Shown here: positions 18,753 to 23,755 of the stretch, piece after piece | Position numbering within the stretch: position 1 is the stretch's first letter | Layout of the letters: each line of letters starts with the position of its first letter | Assembly (NCBI GenBank): GCA_022822215.1 | Contig: JAJECD010000236.1 | Coordinates: forward strand, 1-35,788 | DNA length: 35,788 nucleotides | Source: Candidatus Poribacteria bacterium | GTDB taxonomy: Bacteria > Poribacteria > WGA-4E > WGA-3G | Reading direction: 5' to 3' | Program-made: the position numbers and the translations under genes | Notes under the pieces: generated by a model | Seen by the model: the letters and a program-made list of their open reading frames with translations, nothing else | Database searches by the model: none | Told to the model about the DNA's origin: nothing

Positions 18753-19505
18753 TCAAAACTCATAGATGTCTTCACGCCGTTTTGCGACCTTATGTCGGAC
18801 GAGTGCTTGTAGGTCTTCCGGCATTTTTGCGAAGGTTTCAGGAAAAACGGGTTGGTGTCCGCCCTCGCGCATGAGATTCCACCAAGCAGGATAGTAAGCA
18901 ATATTCAGTGCCATACGGTGTTGATCGTCGGTTGTGTTCGCCCCCTGTCCGTGCCATGTCCCACCGTGCCATAACAACACAGAGCCACGCCGTCCGCAGA
19001 CAGGCACTGGATGACTCTCTGCAATATCGGATTGCGAGGGTCTACGCCGTGCGCGATGACTGAATGGCACAACGAGCGTCGCACCGTTCTCAACTGTGAA
19101 ATCCGTTATCATCCAAATCGAATTAATCATCCACGGCGTTTCTGGGAGGCGCGCTGGCAAGTCGTGCGTCGAATCGGAGTGAATGCCACCCTGTGGTGCG
19201 CGCGGTTTGACCCATTTTGTACACGCCTCACCGAGTCTTGCGCTCTCACCGAGAAAGTGACGGATGACTTGTAGCACCTGTGGATGCGCGATGCACTCCC
19301 AGCACATCTCATCGAGGTTGACTACACCGAAAAGCGTTTGATACAGTTCAGCATCTGGATCCTGAAAAGCCTGTCGATTCGTTGAGTCTTGATGAAGTTG
19401 GAAATACTTCTTCGCCATCGCGTCGGCTTGCGTTACGGGGATTGCGTCCTCAATTAAGCAATAACCGAATGTTTCGAGATGCTCTATTGCGTTTTGTTGT
19501 CGCAT
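18753..19505 (-). CDS. Phytanoyl-CoA dioxygenase (PhyH) family protein
   Basis: This is a 250-aa Fe(II)/2-oxoglutarate oxygenase. Iron ligands are HSD (H109, D111) and a distal His in LLWHGGTWHGQG (H180 or H185). R197 in QHRMALN probably binds 2-oxoglutarate. Its ATG directly follows the stop codon of the methyltransferase-like gene (TAAATG), with GGAG 8 nt upstream inside that gene, so the two are translationally coupled. It differs clearly from the PhyH protein at 11621, so the two are not recent copies. The substrate is unknown. Confidence 0.92.
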   Translation of the reverse strand: MRQQNAIEHLETFGYCLIEDAIPVTQADAMAKKYFQLHQDSTNRQAFQDPDAELYQTLFGVVNLDEMCWECIAHPQVLQVIRHFLGESARLGEACTKWVKPRAPQGGIHSDSTHDLPARLPETPWMINSIWMITDFTVENGATLVVPFSHRARRRPSQSDIAESHPVPVCGRRGSVLLWHGGTWHGQGANTTDDQHRMALNIAYYPAWWNLMREGGHQPVFPETFAKMPEDLQALVRHKVAKRREDIYEF

Positions 19506-20033
19506 TTACTGATCTCCGTTTCTCTTTTTGTTACGAAACACCAACATAAATCTGTTTTCTTCTATTTGCACAACGCGTTCTAAAAGAAAGTACTTCTCAA
19601 TAATGTGCTTAGCAAAAGGGACTGTCCAAAAGTAGGTTGGATACGCGTACGTACCTTTGTCAGGAATTGTCTTACTTCCTCCTATCAAACCCGTCTGCAC
19701 ATCATATCGCTCTGGAAGTGCTTTCTCCCCCGCTCTTTTGACTAATTCATCGTGCATAATGACAACGAACATACCCTTATCCGATAGAATCCGTTTCAGC
19801 TGGACTGATGCGAAGTCGATGCCTGTTGCTATTGCGCCCATGTCTGCCATGGCAAAGGTAAACCGTCCTGCATTGCAGCCCAAGTCTAATGCGCGCATGC
19901 CGGGTCTTACGAGTTTGCGCAAGTGGTCTTCATATCTATCAACGGCAAATTGGGATCTTGGATTGTCGGGATCGGTTGTCGGATGGACCCCTCCTGCATT
20001 GTAATGTTTTCGAGTTGCCTTGAATACGCTCAT
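19506..20033 (-). CDS. SAM-dependent methyltransferase-like protein lacking the middle of the fold
   Basis: This is a 175-aa protein from ATG 20033, which has AAGGA 10 nt upstream. The track's TTG at 20051 is unlikely. The N-terminal half is a normal class I methyltransferase entry: motif I ALDLGCNAG and the acidic end of strand 2 in ATGIDFASV. It then passes straight into QLKRILSDKGMFVV, which resembles strand 5, and a family-like C-terminus (YFWTVPFAKHIIEKYFLLERV). Strands 3 and 4, about 60 residues, appear to be missing in frame. It may no longer methylate, or it may be a dead remnant kept for coupling to the PhyH gene. Confidence 0.72.
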   Translation of the reverse strand: MSVFKATRKHYNAGGVHPTTDPDNPRSQFAVDRYEDHLRKLVRPGMRALDLGCNAGRFTFAMADMGAIATGIDFASVQLKRILSDKGMFVVIMHDELVKRAGEKALPERYDVQTGLIGGSKTIPDKGTYAYPTYFWTVPFAKHIIEKYFLLERVVQIEENRFMLVFRNKKRNGDQ

Positions 20034-20164
20034 GTGTCTCTTTTCCTTCAAATATCGCTTGCATTGTCTGGTGTTATCGTGTAAATTAGCAGATAGGATG
20101 CATCATACATTTTACCATAGTTTATCATGTAGGAAAAGAAAAAATAACTGGAATACAATACACT

Positions 20165-21289
20165 ATGAAGATTACTGGATTTGAAACGATACCCATTCAA
20201 GGTCGGGCGATGATCTTGAAAATGTTCACTGACGAAGGAATCATCGGCTACGGTGAACCGATGAACTACGAGCATTGGCGCGTCGTTGCACAAGCCGTAG
20301 ATGACATGGCGGCATACCTTGTTGGCAAGGACCCACTACAGATTGAAGCACACTGGCAGGCGATGTACAGATCAAGCTATAGCCGAAGCATGCCGGCGTT
20401 GGTCGGTGCCCTGAGTGGGATTGAGATGGCGATGTGGGATGTGTTCGGTAAGGTCGTCGGGATGCCGGTGTGGAAGTTATTAGGCGGTTCGGTGCGGGAT
20501 CGGATTCGCGTTTATACCGGTATAGGTGGCACAACACCTGAGGGATGTGCGAAGCGCGCGAAAAAAGCAGTTGAAACTGGTTTTCGTGCAGTAAAGATGG
20601 GAGCTTCGCCTCAGCCTGTCCGGTTTGTTGATACCCCAAAGGCGATTGACACGATGGTAGCACGGGTGGCAGCGGTGCGCGAGGCAGTGGGTGATGAGGT
20701 CGATATTGCTGTTGATCTGCATAGACGTTTGAGTCCAACGATGGCTGTCATCTTAGTAAAGGAATTAGAACCCTTCCGTCTCTTGTTTGCCGAGGAGCCC
20801 TGCCATCCGGAAAACAATGAACCACTGTTGACGTTGTCCCGCTCTACAACGGTGCCAATCGCGACCGGTGAACGGCATTTGACGAGGTGGGGTTTCAGAG
20901 AGGTAATCGAGCGTGAGATGTGCGCAATTTTGCAACCCGATATCCGACACTGCGGTGGGATACTGGAACTGAAAAAGATCGCGGCGATGGCGGAAATCCA
21001 CAATATGGCGGTCGCACCGCACAACGCCGCCGGTCCTATCGGGGTTGCAGCATCGGTACACGCGATGGCAACAGTGCCGAATTTGTTGATATGCGAGGGC
21101 GGACATCGGCGCGGAGAAGGGGTGTTTCAGACGCCTTTGGTGTTCAAAGATGGATTCATCGAACTTCCGACAGCCCCTGGACTCGGTGTGGATATGGACG
21201 ACGCAGCTATTGAGGCAATCCGGGATGAGACGTTTCGGTTGCGTGGGATGTTCTGGCACACAGACGATGGTGCTTTTGCAGATTACTAA
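20165..21289 (+). CDS. Enolase-superfamily dehydratase, galactonate-dehydratase-like (second copy type)
   Basis: This 374-aa enzyme has the full enolase-superfamily active site: DLH (D184, H186), FAEEP (E210), TGER (E236) and PHNAAGP (H286), the same spacing as the 15273-16433 protein. K144 in AVKMG lies at the position of the second-strand lysine motif, which the other paralogue lacks (it has RTNVL there). The two are therefore distant paralogues that probably act on different acid sugars. The ATG is only 6 nt after a TACAAT box, so the message may be nearly leaderless. It is divergent from the methyltransferase/PhyH pair. Confidence 0.92.
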   Translation: MKITGFETIPIQGRAMILKMFTDEGIIGYGEPMNYEHWRVVAQAVDDMAAYLVGKDPLQIEAHWQAMYRSSYSRSMPALVGALSGIEMAMWDVFGKVVGMPVWKLLGGSVRDRIRVYTGIGGTTPEGCAKRAKKAVETGFRAVKMGASPQPVRFVDTPKAIDTMVARVAAVREAVGDEVDIAVDLHRRLSPTMAVILVKELEPFRLLFAEEPCHPENNEPLLTLSRSTTVPIATGERHLTRWGFREVIEREMCAILQPDIRHCGGILELKKIAAMAEIHNMAVAPHNAAGPIGVAASVHAMATVPNLLICEGGHRRGEGVFQTPLVFKDGFIELPTAPGLGVDMDDAAIEAIRDETFRLRGMFWHTDDGAFADY

Positions 21290-21657: not shown

Positions 21658-22227
21658 TTAATCTGTCAGCAGTATGAGCGGCTTAACAGAATTCTGACGA
21701 TATGTGGCTTCTGTGACATTGTCGGCAAAGAAAGGGGCGAAAAATGCGTCAGCGATTTCCAAGAATGCGGGTAAGTCGAGTCCCATATAGTTCCCTAAAG
21801 CATCGTCACATTCAACAATAACTTGCCGTAATTTATCCCGTCCGGCAGTAGAAAGGGTGCGCAATGGGCGCAGCATTCGCATGTGATGTTTGATGAGGGA
21901 TGCTGAAACCTGAATCAACCCTTGAAGAAAAAGACGATACGTATCCTCTGCTTGGTGCCATAATCCTTCCCACGCTTCATGTGCTTCCCACCAGTAGGCA
22001 AAGTTGTACAAATCTACGCCGTAGCGGTAATCCTCATTTTCCTGCCAGCGTTCTGGCGGTAACGGATTATCATCGTGTTCTTCTTCGAGTCCATAACTGT
22101 GTCCGCGCGGATCTCGGATGGGATGCGGTGTGATGCCCGGGATATGCCTATACGGCGGGAACGGTTTTTCTGGGCAGTATCGATGCCAATTTGCATCAAA
22201 AGGTTCGGGTTGTTTAATAGTGTCCAT
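21658..22227 (-). CDS. DUF309 domain-containing protein
   Basis: This 189-aa soluble protein has the DUF309 signature: DLYNFAYWWEAHEAWEGLWH followed by FLQGLIQVSASLIKHH. This helical family is known for conserved His/Glu/Trp residues but has no established activity. The N-terminal 65 residues are a proline-rich extension (PFPPYRHIPGITPHPIRDP) not typical of the core. It starts 15 bp after the end of the UDP-glucose dehydrogenase gene, so it is probably co-transcribed. Confidence 0.88.
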   Translation of the reverse strand: MDTIKQPEPFDANWHRYCPEKPFPPYRHIPGITPHPIRDPRGHSYGLEEEHDDNPLPPERWQENEDYRYGVDLYNFAYWWEAHEAWEGLWHQAEDTYRLFLQGLIQVSASLIKHHMRMLRPLRTLSTAGRDKLRQVIVECDDALGNYMGLDLPAFLEIADAFFAPFFADNVTEATYRQNSVKPLILLTD

Positions 22228-22242
22228 GTCGTCAGCGGTATT

Positions 22243-23622
22243 CTATATTCTGCCGACCCCGATGTAGTGAAAACCCGCGGCTCTTGCTTCTGCCGGTGAA
22301 TAGACATTGCGTCCATCAATGAGGATGGGTGTCTTCATCTGCTTGGCGAGTTTACGGAGTTGAAGCCTGTGGTAGAGATTCCATTCAGTGACAAGCACTA
22401 ACGCGTCTGCATCGTAGGCGAGCGCGTCTATATCTTCTGTGAAGTACAGGTTAGTGTTAGCAGACGGATCCTTTCCCCTTAAAGCACGCTGCGCATTTTC
22501 AATAGCGATCGGGTCGTGTGCACGAACAGTCGCACCTGCAGCAATGAGCTCGCGAATAATGTCAAGCGATGGCGCTTCTCTCACGTCATCCGTGTTGGGC
22601 TTGAAGGCGAGACCGAGGATACCGATAGTTTTACCTTTGAGTGTCTTCAGGACCCCTCGCAATTTTTCGATGATATGCGCGCGTTGGCGAAAATTAACGG
22701 TACGTGCAGCTTCTGTGATGGGCATCTCGTATCCGGATTGCACTGCGACTCCTAACAACGCTGAAGTATCTTTAGGGTAACAACTCCCACCCCAACCGAG
22801 GCCTGCTTGGAGGAACCGCTTTCCGATGCGAGTATCGAGTCCAATACCGCGCGCGACCTCCGTCACGTCTGCATTCACCTTTTCACAGAGTCCTGCAATT
22901 TCGTTGATAAAACTGATTTTGAGCGCGAGGAATGTGTTCGCAGCGTATTTAATCATCTCAGCACTGTTTGGATCGGTTGTCATCATCGGTGGGAGGTGGT
23001 AAGCCGATGGTCGTGGAAATTCACTCGGTGGATCAAACGTCTGTTCGAGAATCGGTTTATAGAGGCGACGTAATGTATCGACAGCTTTTTCACTATTTGC
23101 ACCGACGACGATCCGATCGGGATACAGTGCGCCTTGTAAGGCTAAACCTTCTTGTAGGAACTCCGGATTTGAAGCGACAGACACATTTCCCTGAATCCCA
23201 CGTGTCGAAAAAACAGACTCGACAACCTTAGCGACACGTTGGTTGGTGCCGATGGGGACAGTGGACTTAACGACAAGCGTATAGTGTCTATCGGGCAGAC
23301 AGACTTCTGCCACTTCTCTCGCCGCCTGTTCAACGTGCTGCGTATCGGCTTCCCCGTTCTTTTTCGGGGGCGTTCCGACAGCAATCAGAATCAGCTCTGC
23401 ATCCGGCACAACTTCAGCCACACTGGGTGTAAAGCGGATAGCGTGCTGCACCATTTCAAGCAGACCTTGGATGCCGGGTTCGTGGATCGGGCTTTTCCCT
23501 TCGTGTAGGAGGTCTAACTTGCTTTCGTCTTTCTCTACTACGGCGACATCATGATTAAGGTAAGCGAGTACAACAGCCGTGGTCAACCCGACGTATCCTG
23601 CACCTATAATTGCAATTTTCAT
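22243..23622 (-). CDS. UDP-glucose 6-dehydrogenase
   Basis: This 459-aa enzyme oxidises UDP-glucose to UDP-glucuronate with two NAD+ for surface-polysaccharide synthesis. I start it at ATG 23622 (MKIAIIGAGYVGL, the Rossmann motif). The GTG at 23655 adds an unlikely tail. Family motifs are KSTVPIGT, SNPEFLQEG, AEMIKYAANTFLALKISFINE and the catalytic GGSCYPKD (C281, D285), followed by the C-terminal domain with GLAFKPNTDDVREAPS. The GDP-mannose branch is possible, but the KYAAN/GWGGSCYPKD set favours UDP-glucose. No SD is visible at the preferred start. Confidence 0.92.
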   Translation of the reverse strand: MKIAIIGAGYVGLTTAVVLAYLNHDVAVVEKDESKLDLLHEGKSPIHEPGIQGLLEMVQHAIRFTPSVAEVVPDAELILIAVGTPPKKNGEADTQHVEQAAREVAEVCLPDRHYTLVVKSTVPIGTNQRVAKVVESVFSTRGIQGNVSVASNPEFLQEGLALQGALYPDRIVVGANSEKAVDTLRRLYKPILEQTFDPPSEFPRPSAYHLPPMMTTDPNSAEMIKYAANTFLALKISFINEIAGLCEKVNADVTEVARGIGLDTRIGKRFLQAGLGWGGSCYPKDTSALLGVAVQSGYEMPITEAARTVNFRQRAHIIEKLRGVLKTLKGKTIGILGLAFKPNTDDVREAPSLDIIRELIAAGATVRAHDPIAIENAQRALRGKDPSANTNLYFTEDIDALAYDADALVLVTEWNLYHRLQLRKLAKQMKTPILIDGRNVYSPAEARAAGFHYIGVGRI

Positions 23623-23755
23623 TTTTTTTACTATCAAATATGGGCATCGTTCCACTTCGTTTCACGATGGTTTTGGGTTAATTCCAACCGGAATGGGAGC
23701 ATGAACAGTTATTAAGAGTCTATAACTAACAACACATCCACCGATGAGAAGATAT

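Follow-up and report, generated by a model that had tools for sequence, protein, structure and literature searches.

An in-frame internal deletion in a methyltransferase gene adjoining an intact PhyH gene in Poribacteria

The window, i.e. the complete stretch of 35,788 nt that was analyzed, comprises the whole of one contig in a draft genome that is 84% complete and distributed over 422 contigs; judging by its closest relatives, which are without exception Candidatus Poribacteria, the genome is that of a Poribacterium. At positions 19,506–20,033 its reverse strand harbors an internally deleted open reading frame for a class I SAM methyltransferase of 175 amino acids, whereas the full-length orthologues comprise 225–231. 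It is followed on the same strand by an intact gene for a PhyH-family Fe(II)/2-oxoglutarate dioxygenase (18,753–19,505; 250 amino acids), whose start codon abuts the methyltransferase stop codon in the sequence TAAATG (19,503–19,508, reverse strand). A GGAG located within the 3′ end of the methyltransferase gene (19,514–19,517, reverse strand) forms the Shine-Dalgarno-like site of PhyH. The divergent upstream gene, on the forward strand (20,165–21,289), belongs to the enolase superfamily (MR/MLE), with galactonate dehydratase as its best NCBIfam match. The start of the methyltransferase was assigned to the ATG at position 20,033 and not to a TTG at 20,051, because the leader with its Shine-Dalgarno-like AAGGA (20,044–20,048, reverse strand), 10 nt 5′ of this ATG, is conserved across the orthologues, which give no support to the TTG; the good ribosome-binding site noted in the original prediction was thereby borne out. 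Pfam and PDB alignments agree that motif I with the SAM-binding loop, ALDLGCNAG (19,866–19,892, reverse strand; residues 48–56), has been kept; this glycine-rich loop follows strand 1 and is invariant among the orthologues. In the translation GIDFA runs directly into SVQLKRILSDKGMFVV, and the stretch LKRILSDKGMFVV (19,761–19,799, reverse strand), a helix and strand 5 according to the alignment with 1ve3, is likewise kept and is now fused onto the end of strand 2. The reading frame with its coordinates and strand, motif I, the joint between GIDFA and SV, LKRILSDKGMFVV and the TAAATG shared with PhyH were all found as originally described.

The extent of the loss was determined by alignment with 13 orthologues from the contigs of related genomes (225–231 amino acids), which align end to end with the window copy except for one gap of 55 residues. 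As the original prediction had proposed comparing the gene with its nearest methyltransferases, it is of note that all 13 are full length and that the gap occurs in the window. The missing piece measures exactly 165 nt between codons 75 and 76 (19,809|19,808, reverse strand), so that GAC TTC GCA is joined to TCA GTC CAG with a microhomology of 0–1 nt, and corresponds to residues 76–130 (55 codons) of the full-length orthologue L002. A loss in frame had been anticipated correctly, its size is slightly smaller than the roughly 60 residues first estimated. The closest full-length members show 91 and 88% identity to the window copy over the residues that it retains. The full gene was found in 30 of the 37 other genomes of the genus (in one of them, G005, it is cut by the contig end), a full-length methyltransferase matching over the full model occurs in nine genomes of the sister genus, and at this locus the gene is uninterrupted in relatives. 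No second 175-residue form was detected among 85 genomes of the phylum, and the junction sequence is absent from all others of the 59 family genomes; a search of the whole family with the junction motif allowing two mismatches returned scattered, unrelated matches only. The methyltransferase is single-copy in the window genome, where neither a second copy nor a hidden full-length allele was found and the missing 55 residues gave no convincing match elsewhere (best E-value 0.013, 46% over 26 residues).

The consequences for the protein were assessed against the methyltransferase families and the nearest solved structure. Full-length L002 scores 53.6, 45 and 44.7 bits with Methyltransf_31 (PF13847), Methyltransf_25 and Methyltransf_11, respectively, all above the cut-offs, whereas the window protein falls below every Pfam cut-off (22.1 bits with Methyltransf_31, cut-off 27). 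It has motif I, the end of strand 2, strand 5 and the C-terminal part in common with the Poribacteria orthologues of approximately 230 amino acids, but lacks residues 76–130. By profile the nearest structure is 1ve3 (PH0226, a hypothetical protein), of which residues 10–151 of the chain are matched by the full-length orthologues with an E-value of 2e-15. In the full-length proteins the lost part aligns to 1ve3 as ordinary methyltransferase sequence, and the window copy is devoid of the portion that aligns to about residues 70–125. From this alignment and the general class I fold, we take the lost part to comprise strands 3 and 4, together with the helix that succeeds strand 2 and the one that succeeds strand 4; strand 4 would carry motif IV, and strand 3 presumably bears the acidic position that contacts SAM. 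The core of the window protein would thus be incomplete, lacking both of these strands and motif IV, and the lost segment also includes many residues that are invariant in the intact orthologues. Because the sheet lacks two central strands, the 175-residue product should not fold, bind SAM or methylate. AlphaFold models were poor for the short form and for a full-length control alike (pLDDT 43.6 and 38.3, respectively, from an alignment that held only close relatives), so that the predicted loss of the fold rests on sequence alignment.

Breakage of this gene is a recurrent event in the genus. PhyH is present in 36 of 38 genomes, and the methyltransferase is broken or gone in seven of those 36, including the window genome. 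A larger internal deletion has left a frame-shifted frame of about 122 amino acids in G012, 42 codons remain in G006, and G037 and G013 have only the leader and the 3′ end. The gene is absent in G011 and G022, which have an intact PhyH, and G004 possesses neither gene. The breakpoints differ between the broken copies. In a PhyH tree, whose deep branches are weak, the losses are scattered and in many cases have an intact genome as their sister, as for G006 and G020 (support 99) and for G013 and G002 (support 100). This repeated loss and breakage with PhyH being kept indicates that the methyltransferase is dispensable in the genus. The window gene resembles bacterial pseudogenes formed by internal deletion in its restriction to a single genome, the internal position of the loss, its intact neighbors and the repeated loss in relatives, but differs from them in that its reading frame is still open. 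The original prediction had offered a recent internal deletion or a new minimal SAM-binding protein as interpretations. The former is supported: in every intact relative the gene has its full length, none of the others among the 59 family genomes has this junction, and seven further members of the genus have a broken copy or none at all. The latter is not supported, as the core of the class I fold is missing and no second short form occurred among the 85 phylum genomes.

The PhyH protein is unusually conserved, being 88–94% identical across the genus and 90% identical in two genomes of the sister genus. Poribacteria have very large numbers of PhyH proteins, most of them with no assigned function (PMC3909097), and a Poribacteria member of the family was among the actives in a screen for 2′-O-methylnucleoside demethylation (PMC12709175). 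At first look, about 50–75 candidate places for PhyH occur per genome. The coupling of both genes, as originally suggested, holds for the TAAATG overlap, which is found in many, not all, members of the genus, and in about thirteen genomes of the genus an intact methyltransferase leads directly into PhyH. As a general rule it does not hold. In about nine genomes (among them G024, G007, G020, G021, G027, G028, G032 and G034, and in degraded form G035) a second methyltransferase-like gene lies in antisense orientation between the two genes, and the PhyH thus separated has its own upstream region. This antisense gene encodes 272 amino acids in G024 (L028, 1,818–2,636) and is absent at this place in the window. 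In seven of the nine methyltransferase-bearing genomes of the sister genus PhyH is absent at an E-value of 1e-60, and in the other two it is located on another contig. This arrangement weakens the assumption that methyltransferase and PhyH form an obligate functional unit. The methyltransferase of the sister genus adjoins a nucleotide-sugar dehydrogenase and a DUF309-like protein, both named from the look of their translations. Inspection of translations near the window gene revealed homologues of the DUF309-like protein (21,658–22,227) and of the nucleotide-sugar dehydrogenase (22,243–23,655). Based on the sister-genus layout and these homologues, dehydrogenase, DUF309 and methyltransferase probably represent the older neighborhood and the PhyH junction a later arrangement.

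The age of the deletion was approached by a branch test on the retained codons, which gave an omega of 0.12 for the window branch and 0.17 elsewhere; omega = 1 was rejected on the window branch (lnL −5179.9 versus −5191.6). As this branch spans the periods on both sides of the deletion, and most of it presumably precedes the deletion, the low value implies that there was no long period of free decay afterwards, so that either the deletion is recent or constraint on the remnant continues. Purifying selection dominates the branch, which is most simply explained by a young deletion. Two changes are found only in the window, and both are non-synonymous. One of them affects Glu63 next to motif I, which is invariant in the 13 full-length orthologues and replaced by Ala in the window. 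These changes are a weak hint at relaxation.

Concerning the mechanism, microhomology at the junction amounts to 0–1 nt with every full-length homologue, no word of at least 8 bases from the lost segment, taken as it stands in G026, recurs in its flanks of 75 nt, and L002 has no direct repeats. Slipped-strand deletion between repeats was consequently rejected, and the joint more probably arose by illegitimate joining. The similarity of the gene (19,509–20,033) switches along its length, with a middle segment like G026 and a 3′ segment like G009 and G010. Mismatches to G026 number 25 in 225 positions to the left of the junction and 4 in 186 to the right, and then become dense again; since the breakpoints were picked after seeing the data, the p-values attached to them are only indicative. 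Such switching points to recombination at the locus and shows the gene to be a mosaic, with the junction located at one tract end or in the deleted gap beside a tract end. With the nearly identical G026 tract lying right of the junction, it is plausible that the joining took place during uptake of a related or foreign allele.

Two rival readings deny that the window shows a decaying gene. According to one, the organism has the full gene, and its shortened form was produced by the assembler through a chimeric read or the fusion of two places. The fragmented state of the draft (84% complete, 422 contigs) and the strain mosaic in this segment, as it can arise in strain-mixed assemblies, are compatible with such an artefact. 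However, the junction has a microhomology of only 0–1 nt, and the lost segment in its G026 form has no words of this length in common with the flanks, which leaves a k-mer graph without anything to collapse. The assembly does not contain the lost piece at any other place, and separate assemblies carry deletions in the same gene. An artefact is therefore improbable. Even less credit is given to the second reading, a functional short protein that binds SAM or is otherwise active and is under selection. It would account for a deletion in frame, for the intact start, Shine-Dalgarno site and stop-start overlap, and for the low omega on the window branch, yet such a protein would be confined to one genome, without strands 3 and 4 and many invariant residues and with the invariant Glu by motif I changed to Ala, whereas relatives have lost the gene outright. 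The low omega presumably reflects mostly the time before the deletion.

A further reading concerns the question why the remnant persists and is compatible with the decay of the gene. Ribosomes that finish the remnant could restart at TAAATG on PhyH, and shortening in frame would be tolerated or favored while frameshifts would not. We regard this as possible, though doubtful. The window has kept TAAATG or a similar overlap and GGAG, and so has G037, in which a mini-ORF of 18 codons just upstream of PhyH (L077), composed of the methyltransferase leader and last codons, ends at TAAATG; in addition, in genomes where the two genes lie apart, PhyH is preceded by a sequence of its own. On the other hand, PhyH is still intact in G012 and G013, whose remnants reach it out of frame, and the kept 3′ end may simply represent the ribosome-binding site of PhyH. 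The parts that survive in decayed copies are the upstream leader and a similar PhyH ribosome-binding site, which would be explicable by selection on PhyH expression. That the 175-residue product or its translation is itself functional, as a non-catalytic remnant or a leader ORF that tunes PhyH translation and was repeatedly selected as the catalytic middle was removed, appears unlikely.

Decay following a recent deletion remains the preferred reading. The deletion with its exact borders, its uniqueness and the repeated loss or breakage in the genus beside an intact PhyH are direct observations, and we are largely confident that the window gene is an orthologue of the full-length (about 230 amino acids) Poribacteria class I SAM methyltransferase, that it recently lost 165 nt in frame from its interior and that it is now decaying. 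Counting against this are the low omega of 0.12 and the chance of one in three that a deletion stays in frame. The deletion would have hit the middle of a dispensable gene, and illegitimate joining, possibly while a related allele was taken up, may have made the junction. The short product without its central strands would be unable to fold as a SAM methyltransferase, and the gene would decay; its leader and 3′ end would persist chiefly as the transcription start region, ribosome-binding site and stop-start overlap of PhyH. On this reading the case is one of routine gene decay and not the emergence of a new minimal enzyme. As the frame of the remnant is still open, an automatic annotator would call a gene here, and caution is required with an open, well-started frame that resembles a tiny methyltransferase and is a deletion remnant. 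The broken copies beside a strictly conserved PhyH form a small natural series, which suggests that the methyltransferase is dispensable in these sponge symbionts and PhyH is not.
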